From assembly GCA_950295325.1 (NCBI GenBank), contig OX485804.1, positions 5,704,001-5,768,000 of the forward strand: a stretch of DNA of 64,000 bases, given 5' to 3'. The translations under genes were made by a program, and so were the position numbers. This DNA comes from Polytrichum commune. Taxonomy: Eukaryota; Streptophyta; Polytrichopsida; Polytrichales; Polytrichaceae. Of the stretch, positions 2,571 to 60,202 are shown in pieces. Under the pieces are notes generated by a model, which saw nothing but the letters and a program-made list of their open reading frames with translations, made no database searches and had not been told where the DNA came from. Numbering within the stretch: position 1 is the stretch's first letter; each line of letters opens with the position of its first letter.

Positions 2571-5179
2571 TCCATCGTGCCTACAACAATCTCAATGCCT
2601 TGAGGCAATGTGAGGTGAACATGCAATCAAGATAATGGTTAACCTTGCCACCTTCTAAATACAAGAAATGCAAACCCAAACCAACTATCACTATGCATTT
2701 GCACACCACTAGATTGTAGACCTTGTAGTGTATAAACTTTGTGTATTTTATGTTGAGTTGTTGGATGCAAGCACATATCTTCTGGAACAACAAATGCTAT
2801 TAGTCAAAAACTAAAATTGCCACACCTACAACATGCTAAAACTTTATGTATCCTACACCGTCTAAGTAACAATAGGATCAATGAAATTGACCCAAAAAAA
2901 TGATGTTTTGTATAAGAATTGGGTGCAGTCAAATCAAGATCATGCACTTTATACCTCCAAATAAATACCCTCTTAATGCATATGTATACCACAACATATA
3001 TTAGTTGTCCTCCCTAAGAACCTACCAAGAGCATGTGATCAATTCATTGTCTGTAATTAAAAAGACCACAATCTCACTTGTTTTGAAAGATTTTGGAAGC
3101 CTTCTTTTGTGACCACACTAGAATACAACCACCAACATAGAGTGACATGGTATTATGTTTCAACATCCTCCATTGTGTTGTGTACATCTAGTTCTTGCAA
3201 GGTTTTCATGTTTAAACTCCAACAACAACTATATTTGTTGTCAGGTGATTTTGCTCATGGATAGTTATCCAAATCATAGTTGGCTTGCGACATCTTCAAA
3301 TTGCATATCACAACAATCAAACATTTGTATTGTATATTACTTGTTATCGCACCCATGGCATGAATTTGTAGTTTTATCTTTAGAATATTAGCCATGATCA
3401 CATTTTTCAAATGCTCAAAATTCAAAGAATATATATATATAATGGATTTGAATGAAAGAAAAAGAATGGAAATTAATTTTTTCAAAATTTTGTTCATTTT
3501 TGTCAAATGATTTAGAAATGGCCCTCATAGCCCTTCCTAGGGGTTTCAAAGTAATTTTGAAATATACTCAAAAAACTGAAATTAGTTACCTTAGTGTTGA
3601 GGTGGCTAATATCAACATTTGGATTCCTTTTAGTTTTTCTCACAAATTTCTCAAATTTTCAAATGGTTTACAAATGGCCCTCGCAACGTTTCCCGTGGCT
3701 TTTAAAAAAATTATGAAAACTTTCCAAAAATGAAAATTAATCATCTCGGTGCACCCTCAATCAAGGTTCAAGCAAACAAATAGAGGATGTAGAGCCATGC
3801 ACCAGGCCTTGGTTAACCTAGAAGACGTTGTTGCCAACTTCACCTTCGCCTTCATCTCCTTCATCCCCCACCTCCAACCTCTCCAACTACAGTGCCCAAT
3901 TTGATAGCATTGCGTAATTCCAAATATTGAGTGACAGTAAATACAATATTTAAGCGGGTTACATTGGCAATACACTAATTATGATCTTAATTACTTGGGG
4001 ATGAACATCAACAACCTTTAGGATTTATTCAATACAGATGCAAGGATCATGAGGTCCATGGTGTTCATGTGAAATTAGGTCATTCATTTACATTAAGGAA
4101 CTCATGAGTAATGACCAGGGAGAACTAGCAGTTCGTTACAAATGAACCGATTGCTACAGACAAATAACCGGATATGGAAGAGGGTAGTCAGATGGGCATC
4201 TGATCCACCAAGGGAAGAAATTGGATATCAACGGGTATTATTTTTGAATTCACTGATAATTCACAGGTTGAAGGTAAAAACCCCAGATATTAACTGTCCT
4301 CACGAGGGTATCGTCAGATACCAACCGACCACTGGGGGTATGTGCCAGATCTCAGCCTTGTATGGGGAGGGTCATGGGGGGATAGTGATCCTCTCCCCCC
4401 GCCATTTCGCCACTCAATCTTCACTCATAGTTGCCTTCCCATCGTTCCTCGCTCTTGGTTGCTTTCTCGTCGCTCCTCGCTCCTCCTCAGCATTGCTTAT
4501 GGTTGCCCTCGCAAGTTTTTGTGTCTTTGGTGTAGATCTCACTTTTGTGTTTTTGGTTTGTTGGTTTAGTGGTTGTGGTGCACTAGTTGTTTAGTGTAGT
4601 TTGAGGGTTGCTAGGATTAGGGTGTTGGTCTGTTGGGTATAAAGGGTTTGCTTAGACTTAGGTGTATTTTTTTGGTTTGGATTTAGTGGATCTCGGTGTT
4701 GTTGGTTTGGGGTTTAGTGATTTTGGTGCGTTTGTTGTTTAGTGTAGGTCAAGGGTTGTTGGGTTAGGGTGTTGGTTTGTTGGGTGTAGGGGGTTTGTGT
4801 AGACTTAGGTGAGTTTTTTTTTGTTTTGGTTTAAGGTTGATGGTATTAGTTCTAAGACTTCTTTTTGGTTGGGTGTGCAAGTCCACGTTATTGCATCAAC
4901 GCACTGGCACAGTGGAATTGGGTTTCATTTGTAAATCACTTTAGCTTAGGTATTGGTAGATTATTTGCAGCTGCTTTTTGTTGTTAGATGTGTTTATATT
5001 ATACTTGCCTTGTAGTTATAATTTAGGAACTTTGTTGAGTCCAATTTTTTTGTCTTCACATGGTAAAAGACAAAAGCATCTCTGTAATTTGCTTTATAGA
5101 AAGTCACAAAGTGATGATACAACATTTATGCAAACATCATCATCGTCTAAAGGTTGTACCTCTCATCCGGGTTTGACTC
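1986..5179. other. Spacer with two local tandem duplications
   Basis: No gene was recognised. Two diverged tandem duplications are visible. One has a period of 156 bases: the block holding AAATGGCCCTC at about 3517 recurs at about 3673. The other is a GT-rich block with a period near 150 bases: about 4564-4680 recurs at about 4713-4830, sharing GTTTAGTG, TTGTTTAGTGTAG and TAGACTTAGGTG. Open frames across the first duplication stay open only because the period is a multiple of three. Confidence 0.6.
2515..2566. repeat. (TC)n microsatellite
   Basis: About 52 bases of uninterrupted TC dinucleotide repeat in AT-rich spacer. Confidence 0.98.
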
Positions 5180-6231: not shown

Positions 6232-6899
6232 TAGTTAGTTGTTCATCCACTCCATGGATGAACTCCACATAGTATTGGGGTTGTATGGAGAGGAAGGCCT
6301 CTTGACTTGCCATTGTTGTCAAGTCAAGTCTTGTGAGTGTGTTTTGAGAGAGAGAGAGCTTGTTGTTGCTTTCTCATAGCTATGGTGTAGTAGATTATGA
6401 GTAAAGCCTTTGCATTCTTTCTCCACCACTTGCACTCTTGGATTCTCCCTTCGTGGAGTGAGAGATAGCTTGACTCTTGTGTGTGAATTTTAGAGTTTCT
6501 TAAGCTTTGTAAGGAGACATTTTAGTTTCTTAAGCTTGGAGAGAGAAACCCTCATACTTGACAACAATTGCTCAATTTTTTCATTTTTTGGTTGTATTTC
6601 TGAGCTAGAATGGCCCAGTATTGAGAGCAAATGAGTGATACAAATGTTTGAAAGCTTAGTTTGTCATTTCTTGCAGCCCTCAAGAAGATTTTGAGAGAAA
6701 TCTTCCCATTTTTCTTTTGTTGTCTCTTTGTGTTTTCTTCAAGTGTTGATGGTTGAATCTTGAGATTCTATTTGGTCTCAAGATTCTCAAGTCACATCAT
6801 TCTTGCTTGCAATTTGTAAAAGCAAAGTTTAATTTTTTTTTTAAATTTACAAACAAACACAAACCAAACTTAAAATCCGAATTTTTTATAATTTTTTTT

Positions 6900-7096: not shown

Positions 7097-7412
7097 AAGG
7101 TAAGCTACTTAAATTAATTTAGTTGATTAATTAAGTTAGTTAGCTTAATTAGTTCATTAGGTTAGTTAATTAACTTAGATTAACTTAATTAATTAGGTTC
7201 ATTAGTTTAAGTTAATTAAGTTAGGTTGAGTTAAATTAAGTTAATTAAGTTAATTATTTTGTTATTTTGTTATTTTGTTTTTGTTTGTGTTTTTGGTTCT
7301 TTTTGTTTTGTTTAATTAACACAAATATTTTTATTTTATTTTATTTTTCACATTTTTATTTTCACCTTTCAAACTTGGCATCCAATTCTCACAAACTTTG
7401 AGGTTCAAATTT

Positions 7413-7702
7413 GGGGGCATACTAGCTCCGATTGGAGTGAAATTTGAGCCTATCTTGTGTGAAATTTGCCAAGGAATCCAATGGTGTAATTGGATTGTTG
7501 ATTGGAATTCAAAATCATTGCTGAAATTATTAATTTCAACGCTGATTTTTGTTTTTGGGAGCAAATTAACTCCGAACGGAGTGAAAGTTGAGCCTAATTT
7601 GTGTGAAATCTTCCTAGGAGTCCATTGGTGCATTTAGTTTGTTGATTGGAGTCCATAATTACCTTGGAAATGAGCCTTTTCAACGCTGATTTTTCATTTT
7701 AA
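7413..7702 (+). repeat. Two 144-bp tandem repeats upstream of gag
   Basis: CTCCG..GGAGTGAAA at 7426 recurs at 7570, and TTTCAACGCTGATTTTT at about 7534 recurs at about 7678. Both pairs give a period of 144 bases. The copies are diverged but collinear over their whole length. They lie in the untranslated leader, about 150 bases before the gag start. Confidence 0.85.
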
Positions 7703-7849
7703 TTACCAATCTCAAACCTTTGCACAATTTTGGAATTCTGGGGGCATAAACACTTGGCATTTGGCAAGGGATTGCCATTTAGATAGCCCGCAACAGGTGC
7801 AGGTTGCCATTACCTTGTAGATAGTTGCAGGTACTCAAGTGATTATTTT

Positions 7850-9781
7850 ATGGTGCAAACTAGGAGCCAATATTATCGATCTCCATCACCAGATTACTTG
7901 GAGGACGTGCATACCACAAATCTTGAGCCAGAGGTAGATACCAACGACGCTTTTGAGCCTATTTCGGCGTTGGACACTACTAGTAGGCTTCGGATTTGGA
8001 GTGTCGGCACGTTCGACGAAATGGAGGACGATCGCCACAATTCAGTGCGTGATCGGTTTTCAGGTCGAGCTGGGGGCATTTCCTTGCCCGATTGGAAACT
8101 CCGGTTTCGTACCTGGATTAAGGAGAAACGCCAAAGGTCTTCCAATTTCAATGATTGGTATGCCTTTGAACTTCTGCCTCAACATTTGGAATATGAGGCA
8201 CTCCAAACTTATGAACGCTAGACGGAGGGTCATCAGTGACAACTTCGGGAGGTGGAGCAGTATTGGGAGGCTCGGGTTGAGCTCATTTCAGCCCTTAAGG
8301 ATGGGGCGGTTGCTACCTTAGCTCCACCCACCTTAAAGGAGGAGGAATCGCCGGCGGAGTCTAAGGACACGGAACTGGCACTTGGGCCAATGGTGGCTAG
8401 CAGTAGCACGGCAACCCTTTCACGGGTGGCACGTGCTACACAGGCAGCATTGACGGCTGTTGGTCCACCACCTCCGTTTAATCCTCTTATTGAATTTGTC
8501 GCACATTTGGAAGTGGAGTATGGTGGGTTTCAGCGAGACCAGATGCAGCGCATCCAGGATTTCCGCCGAGAGAAGGATGATACTCCACGGACCATGTATA
8601 CGCGACTCGCGCGATTTGCTGTGGAGTCGGGAGATGTTTTTGCTGAGAGTCAGCTTGTTAAAATCTTTTTGTCTAAGATTGACAAGCGGCTACTTGAGTT
8701 GGCATTACCTCGGATTATCCTCGACTACGAGGGCCGAGCTACGCTTGCACAAGCGTTTGCCGTGGTTGAGAGATGTGATCGGGCTCTTTGCCAACATGAT
8801 GCCACGGATATGGTATCTTGGATGACAGAGAGTCCGAAACCAAGAAGGATTGTCACAGCTACTAGTAGTTTAGCTGAGACTCAACCCGTCAAGGAGCAAA
8901 AGATTTTGCATTGTTGGGGTTGTGGAGAAGCTGGTCATTCGAGGAATAATCCCAATTGTCCTAAGAAGAAGAAAACTCAGCCTTTGGGAAAATTAAAACA
9001 AAAGATGGAACCAGTAAAGGCAGGGGACAATTCTAAGAAGAGACAATTGAAATGTAACCATTGTGGTGGCACTAATCACGATGTGGATCATTGTTTCCAA
9101 CTTCATCCTGAGATGCGGCCTGCCAGTTATGTCACTGGAAAGTCTCCAAGGGAGCAGAGTCTTGAGGCTAAGGTGGCAGAGCTTGAGCAAAAGCTCAAAT
9201 CTTCTGTATCTTTTGCTCAAATTTATGAGCCGTATGTGGGTGGTGGCACCTCGGGTTCGGACATGTATATGTTTGGAGCAGCTGGAGAGGTGGTGGCGGC
9301 GGCTGCTACTCGCTCACAAACATTGGCAGATGTGGTGGCTTCCACGAGTGGTGGTAACAACGAGGTGCTACATCCTCGCCATGCCGGACCAGCTGATCAG
9401 ATTGGTCAAGCACATTTACCTCTGTCATTTGGATTGGTAGACACCACTGTTGTTGGGGCTAAAAACCCTGTACCTTTGAGAGATGGGGATTCCATCTTGA
9501 AGGATGTTACGCAGGCATTGGCATATAAAATTCTCCATATGCCAATTTTCTCAGGTTCGGAGTTTATGGCTTCGGATTTCAAGCCTGCTCCAGTTTTTCA
9601 TTTAGCTGGGAGAATGTTAGAAGGTAAGGCGGATTTGCCATCCCTTCAAGTATCCCAAGCTGTGGTTGACGTACCTGTGGCTGACAAGGTGGAGGACTTA
9701 GCCAATTTGCGAGCGAGTCTTGCGGATGCGGCGATCATTGTTTTTGGTAAGCAAACTGATATTCCTCCAACATCAATTTAA
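7850..9781 (+). pseudogene. gag: Retroelement gag polyprotein (capsid plus two zinc knuckles)
   Basis: Gag forms the particle and packages element RNA. The frame opens with MVQTRSQ at 7850. It is broken by TAG at 8219 and TGA at 8234, then stays open to TAA at 9779. After the breaks, a Gypsy-type capsid region contains FNPLIEFVAHLEVEYGGFQ, then TMYTRLARFAVESGD and VKIFLSKIDKRLLELALP. Two zinc knuckles follow. The first (8912-8959) is CWGC..H..C with six rather than four residues between His and the last Cys. The second (9053-9094) is a canonical CX2CX4HX4C. A short heptad-like stretch, SLEAKVAELEQKLKSS, lies after them. All three stops are one C-to-T change away from Gln or Arg codons, so the ancestral gag probably continued straight into the protease frame. 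Confidence 0.85.
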
Positions 9782-9784
9782 GCA

Positions 9785-10455
9785 GTGGATACGTCATTTT
9801 CGAATTATGCGTCGGGAGCGGCATATCTTGCAGACATTTCTGCAAGGCCTGTTCGCGAACGGCATAATTTGCAACCTGGAGTTGTACGGCTGATGAACGA
9901 CAAATCTTTGTTTGTCGTTTCACGCACGGATATGCCTACTATTCGTGCTACACCACTGAGAGTTATGATGGATTCCGGTGCTCAACCGGTTATGATTGGC
10001 AAAGGACTTGCTGACAGTCTTGGATTGACGCCAGCAAGCTTGGATCCTTGTCCATTCACTATTGTGACTTCAGTAGGGGGCACTGAACGTGCAACAGGTT
10101 ACACCAAGGCACCTCTACGTTTGATTTTTCATGTGGGGCAGGGCCTACTTACACTCATTTGTCAATGAAGTGTGTTGTTACTAATGCTACCAACTATGAT
10201 ATACTTGTTGGTCAGCAAGCTCTTTACCCACTTGGCTTTGGTTTGGATAATTGGACGGAAGAGGCATGGATTAGACCGGGATGGTCCACTGGAGATGGCA
10301 GGAAGGTATTTATTCCCGTCACATTTGCAGCCACTGCTATCATTATGGTTGCGGAGGCAATGTTTGGTTGCAGCGGTTCAGTTGCAGATTTGCCTTGTGC
10401 TCCAGTTTTATTGGAGGAAACAATGGACTACACTTGTAATGCGGCAGAACAATAA
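9785..10455 (+). pseudogene. Retroelement aspartic protease
   Basis: The protease would cleave the Gag-Pol polyprotein as a dimer. The active-site triad Asp-Ser-Gly lies at 9971-9979 inside VMMDSGAQPVMIGKGLAD, followed by the conserved LGL. The second half of the fold, with the pattern TNYDILVGQQALYPLGF, is in another frame from about 10159 to 10455. A one-base shift between about 10130 and 10168 therefore breaks the domain. A TAA at 10453 then interrupts the linker to the methyltransferase. The protease lies in the same frame as gag and directly upstream of the methyltransferase, as expected for one large polyprotein. Confidence 0.85.
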
Positions 10456-10560
10456 TTTTTACCATCTTTTCAAATTCCTGCTCGACATTTCAAGGATCCA
10501 CCTCCACCATGGCGAACTCCTAAGGAGTTATCCGACCATTGTCGACACATTGTAAAAGAT

Positions 10561-11946
10561 TTGGATCTTGGAGAGGCACCTCCAACTTCATCCTCATTTT
10601 CTTTTGCTCAACCCATTCGTTGGCAACCGTCACATGAAGGTATTGTCCTTGTGGAGATCTTTGGAGGCATTGGCACAAGTTTGGCGGCAGTGTTGGAAGC
10701 TAGAATTACAGTTTGGCGATATATTCATGTGGACAATGGATATGCAGCCAACAGAGCCGTCCAACACCACATCCAACAATTGTTGTTGAGATACCCCGCA
10801 CACTTGTCAGCCTCTGCCATTCATGGATGTTGTGGTCAACTTCCTTAAGATGTCACTATGATTAGTGATGAGGATTTGAGAAGGTTGGGCCACGTGAATT
10901 TGAATATTGCAGGATGGCCTTGTCAAGGCCATTCGCGGGCAGGAACTGGCCAGGGATTGGATGACCCTAGGTCTAGTTTGTTTGCGGATTTGATGCGATT
11001 GACACAATGGTGGTTTACCCACCAATCAATTCCGCCAGGGTACATTTTCGAAAATGTACCATTATTGGGTGATACCCGGCACAAAGTGGTGAAGGATGGT
11101 GAGTACATTAACCAAATTCTGGGTACTCCAACATTTTTGGATGCTGCATCTTTGGGATCCTTTGCTCATCGGCCTCGTTGGTTTTGGACCAACTTGGTAT
11201 CACCTCGAGTGTTTTCAGCGGCGATTGCCCGCATTCCCCGCCTTATGGATCGCAAGGTGGATGACATTTTAGATGATCATCGTGTTTCCTTGGCAGTTAC
11301 CAATGATGACACCTTGCCATTTGCATTAATTAATAAGGTGGGCATTCCGAGAGGTGCACTATCTACTTTTGTGACATATCCACAGTCTTTTGCATTTCGA
11401 TCTCGTGGACCTGGCATGGTTTGGGATTCAAAATCCCAAATTTATGAGGAGCCTACGGCAGATGAGCGGGAACGCGCCATGGGTTTTCTTACAAGTACCA
11501 CGGCTGCTCACGGGCTTCAGGAAGGTCAGAGACGTTTCCTATTGGGGCAAGCTATGGATCTTAACAACATTGTGTGGATAATTGGAATTTGTCTTGCTGC
11601 TCAACAACGTATGGATGACCAATTGCTTACTCTGAGGGCAGAGAACAATGGTCAGGGGGCAATGGAGCCGCAATCCAAGGATCACATTGAGGTCAATGAC
11701 ACCGAGGGATTATTTCCTTTGAAACTTCATGTTGCGGAAAAGCTTCGAGCCCAACGTGTTTTTTCGGCTTTGGCCCAAGAGTTTGGGAAGTTGGAGGCCC
11801 ATAAAATGTTTCCACTTCTATTTCTTGGTGATACTTCATATGTGGGTAGCTATTTAGCTACACAAACTGATTGTAGTGGAGAGGATACGCATTTGGATTC
11901 AAGTGCAGATGATGGGGGCAAAGGTGTTGCCCTCTCCACGGACTAG
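10561..11946 (+). pseudogene. C5-cytosine DNA methyltransferase domain inside the retroelement
   Basis: It would transfer a methyl group from S-adenosylmethionine to C5 of cytosine. Family motifs appear in order. Motif I is VEIFGGIGTSLAAVLEA (FGGIG at 10660-10674), which binds the cofactor. Motif II-like is IHVDNGYAANRAV. Motif IV is GWPCQGHSRAGTG, with catalytic Cys codon 10921-10923, followed by LDDPRSSLF. Motif VI is ENV (11050-11058). Motif VIII-like is RPRWFWTNL, motif IX-like includes ADERERAMGF, and motif X is LLGQAMDLNNIVWIIG. A TAA at 10846 falls between motifs II and IV, so this copy is inactive. A TAG at 11944 separates the domain from reverse transcriptase in the same frame. The C-terminal 100 residues show no motif I recognise. 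The position between protease and reverse transcriptase means it would be made as part of Pol. Subfamily (DNMT1, DNMT3, DRM/CMT or bacterial-like) was not determined. Confidence 0.92.
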
Positions 11947-11958
11947 CAATCACAGGTT

Positions 11959-13813
11959 GTGCTGGCACCAAGTGGCAATCCTTCTATGAAGAAGGAAACC
12001 ACGGAGTTTGACGATTGGCCAATTGAAGTGGAGCCAAAACTTACTGGTGCCGAAGCACGAAAGGTACGGGCATTTATTCGCTCTTACCGTAATTGTTTTG
12101 CCTTTAGTCTTCATGATCTTGAAGGATATAAAGGTAAACCTGTTCGTATTCAACTCAAGGACGACCACCCTATTTTCAGACGGCCGTACAAACTTAGTGC
12201 ATCTGAAAGGTTGGGTGTTCAAACTCGATGTCAAGAGTTATTGGCAGCGGAATTGATTGAACTCTCCAATGGAGAGTATGCTTGTACCACGGTTATGCCG
12301 TCAAAGAAGGATATCTTTGGCAACTGGACGGAAAAACGGATGTATGGTGATTATCGTCCAGTCAACCGCAAGACCAAGTCGGATCGATATCCAATACCGA
12401 TGCCGGAGGAGTTATTTGATGCGCTGGGATTTTCTAGAATCTTCAGCACTCTGGATTTGAGGTCTGGTTATCACCAATTACCTTTGTTGTTGGGTGATCG
12501 GGTGAAGACCGCATTTTGGGGAATTGATAAAGATGACAAGGATCAACTTTTATCATTGGAAATTTCTGCCATTTGGTCTCAAGAATGCACCAGCTGAATT
12601 TCAACGGGTGATGGACCAATTATTGGTTGGTTTGCCGTTTGCTAGATGTTACATTGATGATGTTATCATCTTTAGTAATAGTCCACAGGATCATGTGAGA
12701 CATTTGCAAGCGGTATTTGAACGACTTCAACGGTGGGGACTCCGTTTACATCATGGAAAATGTAAGTTTTTCCATGATCAATTGCCCTATTTAGGCCACA
12801 TGATTGTTCCTGACGGTCTTGGTGTGCAACAAGCGAAAATGGATGCTTTGCACAAAATTCCCGCACCTAGTGATGTACCACGGCTTCGTGCATTTCTAGG
12901 ATTGGCATATTATTATAGGAGGTTTGTCAAAAACTTTAGTTTGATTGCCAAACCTCTTACCATTCTCACGGAGAAAAACCAACCATGGATTTGGAGTCGG
13001 GAACAACAACAGGCATTTGATACATTGAAGCAGAGGCTCGGTTCAGCGCCAGTGCTTCGACGCCCGGATGTGTCTAGAGCTTTTCAATTGCACACGGATT
13101 GGAGTGCAGTGGGATTGGGAGCGGTATTGACACAGAAAGATGAAGAGGGAAAGGAATATGTGGTGGCTTATGCATCTAGAAGTAATAATAGTGCTGAATC
13201 TAATTATTCTTCTTATGAAGGCGAGGCCTTGGCGGCCGTTTGGGCCATTGTACATTTTCGACCTTATTTGTATGGGCAGAAGTTTACTTTGGTGACTGAT
13301 CATCAGCCTTTAAAATGGCTTATGGAATCAGATAAGTTCACCGGAAAACTTGCTAGGTGGGCATTGTTACTTCAGGAATATGATTTTGAAGTTGTTCATC
13401 GAGCAGGAATTGCCAACTTGGATGCAGACGGATTGTCTCGCAATCCAAGTCCTTCAGATGAGGATTTAACTGGAGCCAGGTGGCATGGAGATTGTGATCG
13501 TGAGGCAGTGTCGGGTTGGCATGCTACCACGTATCTCACAATGATGTCGGGATTGGCTGCTGAAATCCTTGTGGAAGAACAAGATGAGGAGGTTGATAAA
13601 TCTCTCGTTGTTAGTGATGTGTGGGAAGACCAGGCGGTCTTGCACAAACTTCAACAAGGGATATTTCCTCTTGGACTATCTTCTATGGAGCGAGATAGAG
13701 TTAGTCACCGGATAACAAGGTTTCGTTGGGCAAACAACTTGTTATTTCGTGTGTGGCCGAACGGAACGAGATGCATCGTTCCAAGGCCAGATCAAAGAGC
13801 TTCTTTGGTGTAG
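11959..13813 (+). pseudogene. Retroelement reverse transcriptase and RNase H
   Basis: Reverse transcriptase copies element RNA into DNA, and RNase H removes the RNA strand. The first frame carries the fingers region (EKRMYGDYRPVNRKTKSD) and the first catalytic Asp in FSTLDLRSGYHQ. A one-base frame change near 12530-12560 moves the rest into another frame, where LPFGLKNAPAEFQRVMDQLL is followed by the catalytic YIDD (12650-12661). A Ty3-type RNase H follows, with its acidic residues in HTDWSAVGLGAVL, SYEGEALAAVWA, LVTDHQPLKW and LDADGLSRN. The order RT, RNase H, then integrase identifies Ty3/Gypsy rather than Ty1/Copia. The frame ends at TAG 13811, directly followed by the in-frame integrase. 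Confidence 0.95.
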
Positions 13814-13816
13814 CAA

Positions 13817-15090
13817 GTGCACGAGGAGCTTGGACATTTTGGAGTGCGAAGGACGCACTCTATGTTGCGCAACCAATATTGGTGGATTGGTATGTATCAA
13901 CAGGTTGTCACTTATGTTTTTCGGTGTGAAGTATGTGACCGGGTCAGGTCAAGTTTTAATACTTTGTCACCTCAACTTCAGTCTTTACCTATTATGGGCT
14001 TGGGATATCGTTGGTCTTTGGATTTTGCCGGACCGCTTACTATCACTCCACGTGGTTCCAAGTATGTGCTTGTGATGGTGGAGCATTTTAGTAAGTGGAT
14101 TGAACTCGTGGCTCTTCCCCAAAATTCCTCAGAATTGGCGGCTATGGCATTTCTTGATCGAGTTTTGGCACGGTTTGGAGCACCTGCAGAGGTGTTGACG
14201 GATCAAGGGAGAGAATTCCTTGGATCTTTCGAGGCTTTGTGTACCAAGGCTTTGATTGATCATCGGACAACTTCCAGAGATCACCCTGAGGCAGATGGCT
14301 TAGCTGAACGAATTGTTCAGACGGTTAAGCGCGGTTTGCGGAAGTATGGATTGCTTCATGACAACCATCGCGATTGGGACTTGATGTTACCATGGATAGC
14401 AATGGGTTATCGTTTTAGCAAGCAAGCATCTTTGGCATCCTATAGTCCTTACCAACTCTTGTATGGACGGGAACCAATTTTACCTAGCTCGGTACGAGAG
14501 AAATTGGCTCCCGTGGTAAATTTGGATGATCCAGATGTTTGGGCTCAATGTCTTCATGACCGAGCAGCGTTCTTCCAAAAGGCCATGCCTATGGTTATGG
14601 AGAATTTGAATATTGCTCAATATCGTGATACATTACGGTATGCCCGGATCCGCAGTGGAGCTTATCGACCTCAGGTTCGTAGATTTTCCAAGGGGGATTA
14701 TGTTTACTTGCAACGGGAGGCGCCTACGACATTGGATGTCAAGGCTGGGCGCACGATTTTGCGGGTAAAAGATGTCTTGCCAAGTGGTATATTATTGCTT
14801 GAAGGCAAGGATGGACGGGAATGTCGTGAGCATTCAAAGAATTGTGCTCCATGTCACCTTCCCATCGACGGCTCTGTGCATCCCGAGTTGGCGGTTGTAC
14901 CACAGGGTCTGCCTTGTTATGTTTGTGGAGAGAAGAAAGGAGCTGCAACAATGTTATTGTGCGACCAATGTCAACGTGGATGGCACAGGCATGTTTGACA
15001 CCTCCCCTTTTTACTCTTCCTTCTGGCAATTGGGTTTGTCCTCGTTGTCGGAAAGCCTCTCATTCCGTGGCCGTTAATGGTCATGATTGA
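13817..15090 (+). pseudogene. Retroelement integrase with C-terminal PHD finger
   Basis: Integrase inserts the DNA copy into the genome. An HHCC zinc-binding start (HEELGHFG to CEVCDRVR) is followed by the DDE core: Asp in WSLDFAGPL, Asp in VLTDQGREF and Glu in ADGLAERIVQTVKRG. After the integrase C-terminal region come the first PHD zinc ligands from 14915 (Cys-x2-Cys-x11-Cys-x2-Cys-x4-His, ending RGWH). The remaining ligands (C..PPL..P.GNWVCPRC, to 15048) lie in another frame. A one-base change near 14990 therefore splits the finger at its His-x2-Cys pair. PHD fingers in host proteins commonly read histone H3 tails. Here the finger occupies the place where chromoviruses carry a chromodomain, so a role in choosing integration sites is a reasonable inference. 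Confidence 0.9.
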
Positions 15091-15521
15091 GAATTTTGTG
15101 GATGTTTACCACATGTTTTAGTGGTGAAGTTGTTATTTAGTTGGTTGGAAATTTTATGGAATTAAGACTACATTGAAAGAGTTATCCAAGAATTCAACAT
15201 TAATTGTTGAAGGCGATTAAAGATGGGGCTCACATTGCACCCAGCCTACAGTTCTTGGATTACTTTGTCAATCACGAGTTTAATTCCTTCGATTACTACT
15301 ACCCAATTAAATATGTATAGATGTAGCAACAACTTCATCATGTTCAACAACTCTATCGATGAGTGTGTTTGTTCCTAGCCGATTGGAGGGGCTCCTTATC
15401 TGCTAGTGGGGGCACTTGAAGAGGTGGTTGTTTAGCATTTTAGTTTGCTATTTTATTTTGCTAATTGATGTTGACAACGACACTCGATCTGTTGTATTTA
15501 ACGATCTTAGTTTACACGACA

Positions 15522-16158
15522 GAGTGGCTCCCGGGACTGCCAAGGTTTGAACGGGCATAACTTCCTCAATGTTTGTCCAAATGGGACAAGTGAGTAGTCC
15601 CTCAGCATCTACACAAAACGTAGATGACGATGAAGTGGTCATATGCAAGCATCAAAGATCATACAAAGAAGTTATGATGTTATGAAGTTGCTGGGGGCTA
15701 AGGAAAAATGTCTACTTGGCCCCAACTCTTAGTAGAGAGACAAAATGTTTCTTGACAGTGGGATAGGGTCCCTATCAGAAGTCCTAGAGGCTTATATGGG
15801 TGAGGTGGCATGGCTGGCCAAACCCATCCGAGGCTGAACAGTACGGCCTCCATGGGCATTGGCCCAACATGGGGGCATAATTGCCTAGTATGGTTTGGGT
15901 TGTTGTAGTGTTGCTCCGGCAAGGCGATGATCAGCTAAAGATTGGACTTCCATAGATGAAAGTCCACATCTAAGCATTGGTTACCGATTAAGTGGTGAGT
16001 CTTGAATGCAAGTGTAGGAGGGTTGGTCCCCCTCCTGTGGTATGGGAAGCTAATCATTCGTATGACAAAATGCAAAGCATTAGCACTCGTGACCCTTGCT
16101 AGAATTGAAAAATAACCAAGATAGTTAAGGGGAGCTAGCAAGGGTTACGACAACATAT
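15522..16158 (+). repeat. Repeat X, right part after the retroelement
   Basis: It starts with GAGT, the second half of the target duplication. It then matches the minus-strand reading of about 1038-1650, for example GGACTGCC, CATAACTTCCTCAAT and the block AATGTCTACTTG..CCCCAAC. It ends near ACGACAACATATG. Confidence 0.82.
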
Positions 16159-33773: not shown

Positions 33774-36700
33774 TCAAACACCAAGTGCATATCGGTCGCG
33801 CTTCGGCTTGCAAGCTCTCCAATCTGAAACGACATCCTTGTACGGGAATGATATCAATGTGTAATGTTTTTGTGCAAACATTGTTGTAGCAAGAGGTAAA
33901 TGTTCAGTTAAGCAGTTGCGGAGTTTGTTCTTCAAGAAAGAAACATTGGAAAATGTTCTTTCGTCTTCTACACTCCCAAGAACCTACAAAATGGATGCAA
34001 AGAGACAAAGTCAGTAAGAAACCAACTTGCATTCAAGAACATGAATACAAAAAGCATGAGAAATTTTAATGAAGTAACATATTTTCAAAATATAACCCCG
34101 TACCTGGATCATCGCAATTTCTGCGAGCTTAAAGAACTCGGGAAACATACCCTTCAAAGGGGCAGATTATGCCAAGGCACGCCATAGTTTGGTTAAGGGA
34201 TGAATGTGGGTGTCCATGGCCCTCATTGCATGAGAAGAATTATTCGCCATAGCCACAGCAAACCAATGCAACTGCCGATCAAGTGCCATAGCACTCAACA
34301 CTGCTGGACATGTATCACAAACATTTGTAGCGCTAGAGAAATCTTTGGTGTGAGCATATGTTTGCTTTAAAGTGTTCATGTACCCTGTGAGTTTGTCCTC
34401 ATGCCCTGGCTCAAGCCAAAATTGAGGATATACAATGGACAGTGCATCCATTACCTCACTAGGGGGAAACCTACTTCCCAATTCCATCACCATCATGGCT
34501 GCAACATCTGCAATAAAAAACCAACACATTAGATCCATGCTCATGGATGTAAAACCTTGATATAATCAAAAGATGCAAAAACATAAACTAACAAACAAAA
34601 CTAAAAACAAACGCATACCTACAACCTCGACCTTCACCTCCGATATCGTTCTATCAAATAATTCTCTTGTCACAAAACTCCTCAAGTGTGTGACATGATC
34701 AATACAAGTCGCATTGAGGTGGAAACCGACTGAAGTTGACAAATGGGCCTCAAAAACCAAGTGCTCAACACAATCATTCACATCTGGATGCCACCTTAGG
34801 CGGATGCTCTCATGCGAAAGGTCACATATCCTTTTGAAGCATGAAAATGCATCTGAAATGAATGCATTGTTTGTGCAATACAAATCATTCACATCTGAGA
34901 TACAAAGGCTCAATGCCCTTGTGAAATCACATACATATACACTGGGGGATTGTGCAAAGATAACCAAGGCTTTCACAGGCTCTAGAAGAGGTAGCACTGC
35001 AGCCAAGGTCAGTAAAGACTTGATATCAGCCATGAGTTCATAATTTACCTTGGCTGCCGGGATTGTTGGTTTTACAAGATGATCAGAGTACATCTTCACC
35101 AAAAGGGTGCGGTACTCCGACAAAACACGTTTCAATGGACTCAACATTGAAATCCACCTCGTTTTTACATTTTGAAGAATTTTTCTGCCCTTAGACTCAA
35201 ACAATTCAGCAAGTTTTTGGAGCTCCAAATGACGTTTTGGGGACTTACTAAAATACTTGTGCAAAGCAGCTAATAGGGTTTCAATCCTAGCCACCATCTC
35301 CAGATCTGATAGACATTGCACTGCAAGGTTGCTTCGATGTGCCACACAATGCATGCCTTGCATGTGTGGCGCATGAGAAACCTACAGCTTGTTAGTGACA
35401 CCATTTCTCTTCCCTTGCAAAACCGATGCACCATCTGCCCCAAATGCCATGAATCGGCCTCTAATCTGATGTGGGGTTAACCCATCTTCATTAGTGAGTG
35501 TACCAAGAATCATCTTGGTTATATTATCGGCACCACCACCCTCAGTCACACGTTGCAAGCACAACAACATTGGCACTCTTTCCCAATCTTGAATTGTATA
35601 AACATGCATGTTAATCCAAGATTGGTTGTCCGACGTTGTGACTTCATCGCAAGTGATAGAGAAGTAAGGGGCTGTACTTACTACTTCTTTTGTCCTTGTT
35701 TGCACAACGTTAAACAAATTCTCAGCCATTTTCCAACCCGACCCCTCGGTCCAATGCTTCAATGGAACCTGCACATACACTCAAGTGCCATTACTAACCA
35801 ACACGATGTTTCAAAACAAAATTAATAACATGAGCAACTGAAACTGAAAGGAAATGAAGGATTCTGACCTTAGGAACGCTCAGAAATTGTAACAGCTCCT
35901 TCATGGGTGGATATTCTGTCATAGGTCTTCCAAATTGTAACAAGTGGAAGATGACTGCCATTTGCACTTCCTTGCGTTTTGGAGGAGCCCCAGCTGTAAC
36001 TAGGGTTCCAATATCATTAACAGACAGTGCTGCAAATGTCCTCTCAGCACGCTTGTGGACGGAATTTTGGTCCCAATACCATTCACATTTCTTCACCTTC
36101 AAAGAAGGTAAGTCGCTGAGTGCTCTCTTCCATCCTTGGTGTTTTTCCAGGTTGTCATCTTTTGCATCCAGTATTTTGTCTCTGCCATTTACTTTAGAGC
36201 AGATGATACATCGAACTTTGTCAAATGTACCATCCCCTTCAGGGTCCTGTTGAGACCATGAGTATTTTGTTGCCCAATTTTCTTGAAATCTGCACCAAAA
36301 CCACCTTAAACCAGTGAGAAACAAGACATCATCAAAAACATATCCTCAAAATGCCAAAAAAAATCCCCATAGGAAGTGGCCCCTAAACCCATAATGTTTG
36401 GGGAGACACGTGCGTGGCGGGTTTGGGTCGGGTATAACCCCCCCCCCCCCCGTCTAGAGGAGGTAGAGGCCACATGTAGGCCCTTCCAGTATAGGCCAAG
36501 AATAAAAAGTTTCACAAGTTTTACAAGAAAAAAACGTGGCCTCAACCGGTAGGGCCTAATCATTTTTTTCTTGTGAAAACTTTTTATTCTTGGCCTACAT
36601 GAAGGCCTAAACTTGACCTCTACCCGCTCCACCTCCTCTATACGGGGGGGGGGGGGGGGGGGGGGGTTTATACCCGACCCAAACCCGCCACGCACGTGTC

Positions 36701-58505: not shown

Positions 58506-59548
58506 AGATTAACCCACATTCGAATTGGCGACACTCAGTTCACAAAAAGATTAGTGTGTTCTGCGTTGCTCTGGGTTCATGGTAGGAGAGTAATTTTTGT
58601 GAGGGAGGTGTTGGGTGTGTGGTACAATGAAGTAAAGATACAAGATACATGGATTAGCTCTTAGGTTTTTTATTCTATTTTTTATTTGGTGAGCAACTAC
58701 AAAATATGAGTCATTCTCCTCTCTTTCATAGGCAAATACGTCTTGGATAATGGTCATTGGGTGGAGATGGTTGATCGACGGGAGGGCACAAGCATGTTCC
58801 ACCCAATGCCCATTATCTAATGTCATGTCGATGTGAGGAGATTAGATCCCATACCATTGAAGAACTTTACAAACAATCTATTGGAATTTGTCATGATAAT
58901 TTGTGAATGAGATAGATGTATTAATTTGAATGTGTGGTTTACTCTAAGAAACAGTTGATGAGGGCATCATCTCTTCCCGATGGAAACTAGACTAATGTGC
59001 AACATCGGTGAACGGACCTTAAGGCTAGTTCAAACGAGTCCCAAGTCCTATGTCCTAGTCCACTCAAGGTCAATCCATGCGATCTCAGCCGTTGAGAGCA
59101 TAGAAATTGAAACTTACTAGTTCACACAAGATCCAAAGTCCTAAGTCTCAAGATGACATGGATGCCTACATGATATCACTTTATGGAGGTGAGGCTTGGG
59201 ACTTGTGTTGAGAGAGTTGCGTCAAGCCAAATGCTAGACCCAACTTTCAACACAAGTCCCAAGATGTTTTTCACATAACACAATCAAGATATCACTTTAA
59301 TGAATATAAGTTAAACCACATGTCAATGGTTTCTTGACGACCGAAAGTTGGGACTTTTGCCTCCATGTTGGGACATGCTTAGGCTGCGAGCTGTTTGTCG
59401 CTAACTCTCGGTTTCAATACTGTTTCGACTCCAGAGCAATCTAGCTTTGCAAATTGGCGAAGGACCGCTATCAGTTTTCCGCCATAGCAGAAATCAAATA
59501 GAGTCGTAGATCCATCTTCGACTGGAAGGAGTGTTGGTGAAGTAAGCA
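58506..59548. other. 5' flank of the nitroreductase gene with hairpins
   Basis: Two inverted repeats stand out. CATTGGGTGGA..TCCACCCAATG lies at about 58757-58808. A perfect 17-bp pair, CTTGGGACTTGTGTTGA and its inverse, lies at 59195-59211 and 59247-59263. No gene or promoter element was assigned. Confidence 0.6.
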
Positions 59549-60202
59549 ATGATGGCCGACATCGAGCAAGTCATCAAAGCTCGGCATTCGACCCGCAAGT
59601 TCCTGTCGGACGCCGTGCCACGAGCCGTGCTCGACGAGGCGTTGGAGTTGGCGCAGCTCGCGCCGTCGAACTCCAACATCCAGCCGTGGTTCGTCGTCAT
59701 CGCGCAGGGAGCCCGGCGCGACCGGTTGAAAGAAGTTTTGCTCAAGGAAGCGCAAGAGGCCCCGCCTCCGATCCCCAAGCTGCCGGAAACGTTCAAGCAC
59801 TTCCGGCAGGAGTTGGGCGCTCAAGTTTACGGGGCAATGGGAATCGCGCGGGAGGACAAGGACAGCCGGCGGGCGGCCGTCCTGCGCAACTTCGAGTTCT
59901 TTGGGGCACCCGTGGTCGCGATCATCTGCATCCACCGCGACCTCGGGGTCGCGGACTCGGTGAGCGTCGGGATGTGGCTCCAGACCTTGGTCCTCGCGCT
60001 CACTGCGCGTGGGCTTGGCACATGTTGCCAGGTCTCGCTCGCGGCGTACCCCGACGTCTTGCGCGCTGAATTGAACATTCCTGCCGAGTTGACCATCATT
60101 TGCGGCCTGGCGATCGGGTACGAAGACCCCGCGTTCCCCGCAAACAATTTGCATATTGGCCGAGCAGCTTTGCAAAACAATGTTGTTATCATGGATTCGT
60201 AG
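59549..60202 (+). CDS. Nitroreductase-family flavoprotein, intronless and GC-rich
   Basis: The predicted FMN enzyme would use NAD(P)H to reduce nitro or quinone compounds. Its single open frame is 217 codons, close to the usual length of the family. The FMN-phosphate region is ARHSTRKF near the N-terminus, followed by AQLAPSNSNIQPWFVV. The middle holds GAPVVAIICIHRD and SVGMWLQTLVLALTARGLGTCC. The C-terminal GLAIGYEDPAFPANNLHIGRA is typical of the fold. Two ATGs are adjacent (59549 and 59552); the second has the better context (GATGGCC). The gene is much richer in G/C than its flanks and lacks introns, unlike other genes here. Acquisition from bacteria or retroposition is possible. No targeting peptide is evident, and the substrate is unknown. 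Confidence 0.92.
   Translation: MMADIEQVIKARHSTRKFLSDAVPRAVLDEALELAQLAPSNSNIQPWFVVIAQGARRDRLKEVLLKEAQEAPPPIPKLPETFKHFRQELGAQVYGAMGIAREDKDSRRAAVLRNFEFFGAPVVAIICIHRDLGVADSVSVGMWLQTLVLALTARGLGTCCQVSLAAYPDVLRAELNIPAELTIICGLAIGYEDPAFPANNLHIGRAALQNNVVIMDS

Follow-up and report, generated by a model that had tools for sequence, protein, structure and literature searches.

Why should a retrotransposon carry a cytosine DNA methyltransferase, and how would it make and use one? The question is raised by a 64,000-nucleotide stretch of Polytrichum commune DNA (GenBank assembly GCA_950295325.1, contig OX485804.1, positions 5,704,001 to 5,768,000; hereafter the window, in whose coordinates positions are given), which holds a copy of a Ty3/Gypsy-type element with the order protease (PR), methylase, reverse transcriptase (RT), RNase H (RH) and integrase (INT). 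Its features, all on the + strand, were called from stop-to-stop frames that were then scanned with Pfam. An earlier note on this DNA had described a methylase built into a polyprotein; the enzyme does lie in the element, but it does not share one frame with the RT, since an in-frame TAG at 11944–11946 stands between them, as it also does in a relative, L049. We read the copy as a dead member of an old Ty3/Gypsy lineage, found in green plants and algae, that acquired a DNMT3-type methylase, would express it at the level of Gag through a leaky stop codon, and may use it to mark cDNA. The probability of this reading is put at about 0.5; the assignment of lineage and domain within it is virtually certain, and cDNA as the main target of the methylase is close to an even bet.

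Positions 10456–11946 encode a full C5-cytosine methyltransferase domain between protease and RT, and the span 10561–11946 singled out by the earlier note corresponds to methylase domain plus C-terminal tail. The motifs stand in order, as had been claimed, beginning with FGGIG (10660–10674), HVDN (10726–10737), WPCQ (10915–10926) and FENV (11047–11058) and continuing with HRPRWFW (11167–11187), ERERAMG (11464–11484) and LLGQAMD (11539–11559); WPCQ corresponds to motif IV. The N-terminal part (10456–10848), which contains FGGIG and was aligned to relatives, has no Pfam match alone, and the catalytic and C-terminal part (10849–11946), which contains WPCQ, FENV and a tail of about 115 residues, matches PF00145 (4.9e-9; 36.5 bits, the curated cut-off being 22). 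With a profile built from 17 sequences, namely the window piece and 16 relatives, DNMT3A in the PDB is matched at 3.2e-24, the nearest solved folds are DNMT3A/B, and by profile and fold the domain resembles DNMT3 more than it does other C5 methylases. The 56 PDB sequences at E ≤0.01 include none named as DNMT1, DNMT5 or CMT, an absence that proves nothing. The element differs from DNMT3A in motif IV (WPCQ vs SPCN), with WPCQ or WECQ present in 109 of 137 rows, and the methylase protein is under constraint.

The TAG at 11944–11946 appears to be the one stop of the window copy that is not due to decay, because the intact-looking L049 has a stop at the same point. L049, a 9285-base contig filed in a cyanobacterial metagenome-assembled genome (CADCWO010000201.1) and evidently a stray eukaryotic sequence, has both frames open: its first open reading frame (ORF1, Gag-PR-DNMT) closes with a TAG at 3489–3491, and ORF2, which comes next in the same frame, encodes RT-RNase H-integrase-PHD over 1047 aa. 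Both copies read TAG-CAA-TCA at the methylase/RT junction (11944–11952 in the window), in agreement with UAG-CAR-YYA, the consensus for type I readthrough that is known from the tobamovirus leaky stop (PMC3542737). On both strands of the window the CARYYA context follows 4 of 1606 TAGs, the junction TAG included. The first Met of L049 ORF2 is residue 117 and RT homology starts near residue 118; with the first ATG 117 codons past the stop, synthesis of the RT-RH-INT-PHD part apparently depends on readthrough, and the methylase would be produced at the level of Gag. A stem-loop is predicted 3′ of the stop, within the RT frame (11952–12065): in each copy, none of 200 shuffles folds as well as the 120 bases that follow the stop (z −3.45 and −4.42), and the L049 fold has 90% of cells paired across the two sequences, vs 29–46% when the partners are slid by 1–3 bases. 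Its outer helix comprises 21 pairs with 95% of cells paired and three pairs changed on both sides. Furthermore, all 19 ORF1-type proteins longer than 1100 aa end 77–170 residues past the methylase, many of them sharing their final residues (GGMNALSATK, SIALEKGNGASSSN), and the shared contig sizes of P0100 and P0128 (8955 bases) and of P0049 and P0130 (6232 bases) suggest that these are ORF1/ORF2 pairs. Judged from context, fold and protein ends, the junction stop is very likely leaky. Eukaryotic retroelement sequence was met under bacterial metagenome-assembled genomes not only in L049 but also in P0002 (named Candidatus Obscuribacterales), both being contamination of the public record.

The methylase is common to many related copies, which upholds the view of a captured enzyme inside a Ty3/Gypsy element. 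With the open C-terminal methylase piece as query, 88 proteins were found, one of which (P0058) belongs to the liverwort Calypogeia fissa. A search with the methylase portion of a longer relative gave 38 relatives among 7990 candidates scored, including P0108 (Mp_4g09160), P0110–P0112, P0114 and P0115 of Marchantia polymorpha and P0106 of Calypogeia. With the RT-to-PHD part, 1042 of 7995 sequences scored at E ≤1e-60, and the best 120 of these include Klebsormidium nitens, Closterium, Riccia, Calypogeia, Haematococcus, Tetrabaena and the transcript P0129. Absence of the domain from related copies was the outcome that the earlier note had named as refuting its reading; instead, many relatives carry the methylase at the same place, including those of Marchantia, Calypogeia, Closterium and Klebsormidium. 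Genome contigs yielded 16 loci, among which L049 alone was a long match of high identity (62%). On viral contigs, the window protein as query found five pattern-matching stretches, none a relative; a profile as query found 48 loci at 25–58% identity, with mostly short matches, two of which (L008, L011) were translated as tree outgroups. Plasmids gave four weak Listeria dcm matches.

Domain orders were counted with home-made profiles over 250 sequences (243 proteins, the two L049 frames and five window pieces). The methylase lies between RNase H and integrase in 42 of them and runs into the RT in 15, a protease followed by a methylase without RT occurs in 34, and none of the 250 has both methylase positions. 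Pfam agrees on RNase H-DNMT-integrase in P0116 and P0120 above the cut-off and in P0121 and P0119 below it, and on PR-DNMT-RT in P0117; in P0122 and P0126 it finds no methylase match. P0116 also has a PTM/DIR17-like Tudor domain after its PHD finger and P0120 a G-patch between DNMT and integrase, and both belong to the chlorophyte-side clade.

The two positions correspond largely to two clades. In a Pol tree of RT, RNase H and integrase (116 rows thinned to 96, rooted for drawing only), one side holds 47 rows, 40 with RH-DNMT-INT and seven without a methylase there, and the other holds 49, namely the window itself, 12 rows with the label PR-DNMT-RT and 36 in which the upstream part was not seen; the split has a Shimodaira–Hasegawa-like approximate likelihood ratio (SH-aLRT) support of 99. 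The PR-DNMT-RT label comes from the protein's own sequence in 11 of the 12 and, for P0130, from the contig size common with P0049. Near-duplicates more than 85% alike were removed from this and the DNMT trees, and L049, P0128 and P0136 are absent from the Pol tree. A first DNMT tree had 82 rows thinned to 67. From a second tree nine of its rows were removed because their branches were long, their make-up was odd or motifs were lost (P0202, P0211, P0220, P0218, P0223, P0171, P0190, P0175 and the phage row L008). In this second tree, of 64 rows, 23 PR-side rows including the window form one group (support 97), a single clade for the other 36 is compatible with the data (approximately unbiased test, p-AU 0.816), and, in a comparison made without host DNMT3 rows, the element group excludes the methylases of bacteria and phages (support 100). 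With the nine rows included, each position group needs two changes. Named members on the PR side are streptophytes, Klebsormidium, Closterium and Calypogeia in the Pol tree and Marchantia in the DNMT tree; the other side has two, Haematococcus, with no methylase found, and the chlorophyte Tetrabaena, both green algae. A sister Pol clade that mostly carries its methylase between RNase H and integrase appears in these trees and looks new. Five of the removed proteins (P0202, P0218, P0223, P0211, P0220) have a long-branched methylase-like domain in which a pattern search finds no W-x-C motif; they belong to families of up to 42 member sequences, and their domain is perhaps kept for another role.

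How such an element might work can be sketched from this arrangement. In the subgroup of the window, the methylase is the last part of the Gag-protease frame, and a presumably leaky UAG-CAR-YYA and a predicted 3′ stem-loop come before RT-RNase H-integrase-PHD. Termination would predominate and yield Gag-PR-DNMT, with readthrough by a minority of ribosomes giving a Gag-Pol fusion. The methylase could thereby enter particles at Gag level, be released by the protease and be present in excess during cDNA synthesis, where it would most likely mark new double-stranded cDNA, such that a copy integrates already methylated. Readthrough, packaging, activity, target and benefit are what we infer here. 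A broader proposal, which we regard as doubtful, is that the lineage dates back to the time when green algae and the ancestors of land plants separated, that a single captured DNMT3-type methylase was kept and moved once, so that it precedes the RT in streptophyte elements but follows RNase H, ahead of the integrase, in those of chlorophytes, that a programmed leaky stop turned it into a Gag-level particle protein in part of the streptophyte branch, that particles methylate their own cDNA, so that new copies reach chromatin already marked, and that the PHD finger guides integration.

Several observations weigh against the favored reading. The window has an ATG at codon 14 after the stop, albeit in a decayed frame. 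The covariation of the helix is reached by 77 of 500 shuffles, and as it comes from two rows only, its support is weak. The stop codon itself is known from two DNA copies, the others from protein ends, and P0112 and P0114, which are among the 19 ORF1-type proteins, are named partial. In 15 proteins, two of them Marchantia gene models, the DNMT continues into the RT without a stop; the stop is thus not general and belongs to part of the lineage. The seven Pol rows without a methylase between RNase H and integrase, in which this gap spans 99–229 residues vs 510–571 in three carriers, indicate that the methylase is dispensable. No activity of the Klebsormidium domain was seen in yeast, a result that its authors call inconclusive (PMC5890265). 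Finally, a crude test for CG decay gave no CG excess among C-to-T type differences from L049 to the window (CG 57/360, CHG 67/316, CHH 162/968), and since it compares one dead copy with one distant relative, it neither supports nor refutes methylation.

The strongest competing explanation accepts the same element and leaky stop but lets the methylase act in trans on host chromatin, sibling copies or competitors, damping transposition and limiting harm to the host. Slowed retrotransposition is among the effects discussed by de Mendoza et al. (PMC5890265), and synthesis at Gag level would give much free enzyme. Nothing in the present data separates action in trans from the marking of cDNA, but a Gag-packaged protein would meet cDNA first, and we regard the trans role as possible, though the less probable of the two. 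It is rather unlikely, in turn, that the domain methylates RNA, or that it binds nucleic acid as a component of the particle and plays no part in DNA methylation. RNA methylation was raised by de Mendoza et al. for the LINE type (PMC5890265), and the catalytic Cys or motif IV is lost in P0202, P0218, P0230 and other relatives in which the domain is kept and still recognisable; however, the resemblance to DNMT3 in profile and fold and the motif IV retained in most rows argue for a DNA methylase.

A third option, ordinary mutational inactivation as the origin of the TAG at 11944, with DNMT and RT in one frame in the living element, is far less likely still. The window copy is dead, because it has a nonsense codon in the methylase, frameshifts and further stops: its frames change near 10.1 and 12.5 kb, stops close frames at 8221, 9781, 13813 and 14998, and a TAA at 10846–10848 splits the methylase into two pieces of the same frame (10456–10848 and 10849–11946). 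Neither this TAA, nor the junction stop, nor the second methylase position figures in the earlier note. Such decay, together with the 15 relatives that have no stop at the junction, would favor a mutation, but the same stop in an identical nine-base context in L049, where both frames are open, and the ends of 19 of 19 long ORF1-type proteins near this point argue against it. The chance insertion of a host or bacterial methylase fragment into one copy is rejected with next to no residual probability: no observation in its favor was found, relatives on many contigs and in named plants share the domain and its position, and the elements' methylases group apart from those of bacteria and phages.

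Part of this architecture is already known. KnitGypsy-Dnmt3 of K. nitens was described as a Dnmt3-related, unrearranged methylase in a Gypsy Pol polyprotein under purifying selection (PMC5890265), so that the class is not wholly new, as the earlier note had stated; the report is repeated for streptophytes in PMC12344493, which writes LTR (long terminal repeat) Copia. The window element resembles it in having a methylase within a Gypsy element, and the K. nitens protein P0183 (KFL_009030040), a gene model marked partial, has the window's order, PR-DNMT-RT-RH-INT, and belongs to the window's Pol clade. Judging by species and domains, P0183 would be a copy of KnitGypsy-Dnmt3. The suggestion that the protease-DNMT-RT position may be undescribed is not supported, given this protein; the word 'protease' occurs nowhere in the text of PMC5890265. 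Both the captured Dnmt3-type methylase in Gypsy Pol and the protease-methylase-RT order in a K. nitens protein are thus precedents, but P0183 runs through from DNMT to RT where the window and L049 have UAG. The legend for KnitGypsy-Dnmt3 reports a DIRS-like repeat structure (PMC5890265); no repeat pair was found in the window. Dinoflagellate SymbioDIRS-Dnmt3 and SymbioLINE-Dnmt are likewise retroelement-borne methylases, but their carriers are of the DIRS and LINE kinds, with a tyrosine recombinase or an endonuclease, in contrast to the RT-RH-INT Gypsy element of the window; the SymbioDIRS domains methylate CG in yeast, and de Mendoza et al. proposed that the dinoflagellate elements methylate their own cDNA (PMC5890265).

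The junction is comparable to tobamovirus type I readthrough, and gammaretroviruses also read through a Gag UAG, the stop between Gag and Pol and a 3′ RNA structure setting the ratio of Gag to Gag-Pol (PMC3542737). Unlike these viral cases, the element's frame before the stop ends in a methylase, and a type I context is joined with a predicted stem-loop. The order RT-RH-INT and the lack of a chromodomain match are shared with plant Ty3/Gypsy lineages in the REXdb survey (PMC6317226), from which the window's lineage differs in occurring in algae. Among the titles and abstract openings listed in a literature search that covered few subscription journals, there was no methylase ahead of a leaky stop and no PHD-bearing green-plant Gypsy lineage. 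The leaky stop behind the methylase, the second methylase position, the PHD finger and the spread over liverworts and a volvocine alga, which were not met among the papers listed, appear to be new.

As for the rest of the window copy, a Gag frame (7850–9781) consists of two stop-bounded pieces (7787–8221 and 8240–9781) and is broken in this copy. CCHC-like knuckles are recognised in it by eye, a zinc-finger match is weak and under the cut-off (PF16278, 0.0088), and nucleotide similarity to the Gag part of L049 is found at 7811–8213 and 8401–8971. The aspartic protease follows at 9782–10168 (PF13650, 3.2e-5), and its C-terminal part with a spacer lies at 10087–10455 in a different frame, as a result of a frameshift; the same words (ATNYDILVGQQALYPLGFG) stand after the protease in the relatives P0006 and P0007. 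Downstream of the methylase are RT and RNase H (11947–13813, in frames 11947–12597 and 12506–13813; RVT_1 2.2e-22, RT_RNaseH 6.4e-39) and the integrase (13814–14998; H2C2 zinc finger PF17921 6.6e-14, rve core PF00665 4.1e-14). The start of a PHD finger after the integrase, truncated by a stop, was recognised by eye against L049 ORF2, in which the finger is matched by PF00628 (4.3e-10). The lineage ends in a PHD finger, has no chromodomain match and is non-chromovirus-like.

The 3′ non-coding part (14999–15522), with a purine-rich tract seen by eye near 15402–15414, can be aligned to L049 as far as 15522. At the other end, 6301–6474 is 73% similar to a non-coding part of L049 and is probably 5′ LTR or leader; two tandem 144-base units directly upstream of Gag (7410–7694) perhaps also lie within it. 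No LTR ends, repeat pair of LTR or DIRS-like kind, or target-site duplication were found in the window, and the ends of the L049 contig overlap by 127 bases, which fits a collapsed repeat and does not demonstrate LTRs. An inverted repeat (1049–1670 / 15522–16153; 67% over 668 columns) has its right arm starting where similarity to L049 stops, so the element may have been truncated at its 3′ side by a further repeat.

Elsewhere in the window, an open nitroreductase frame of 218 aa (59546–60202, + strand; PF00881 8.8e-29) has 61.8% G+C vs 38–40% in its flanks and has the look of a sequence acquired recently from a bacterium or fungus, unless it is an assembly artefact; it is the one match in a Pfam scan of ten window ORFs outside the element. 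Two frames at 34566–36345 on the − strand resemble hAT-type transposase pieces by eye and have no Pfam match, and Rfam and tRNA scans of the window gave no matches.

Transposons are usually the targets of methylation, and a lineage that carries a methylase of its own over great distances, and seemingly produces it at Gag level, implies that methylation would help the element. These observations extend what was published for charophytes to liverworts, desmids and a volvocine green alga, the domain having two fixed positions. The leaky stop makes readthrough, packaging and cDNA methylation each testable, and relatives whose frames are long and open have been annotated in the genetic model Marchantia polymorpha.
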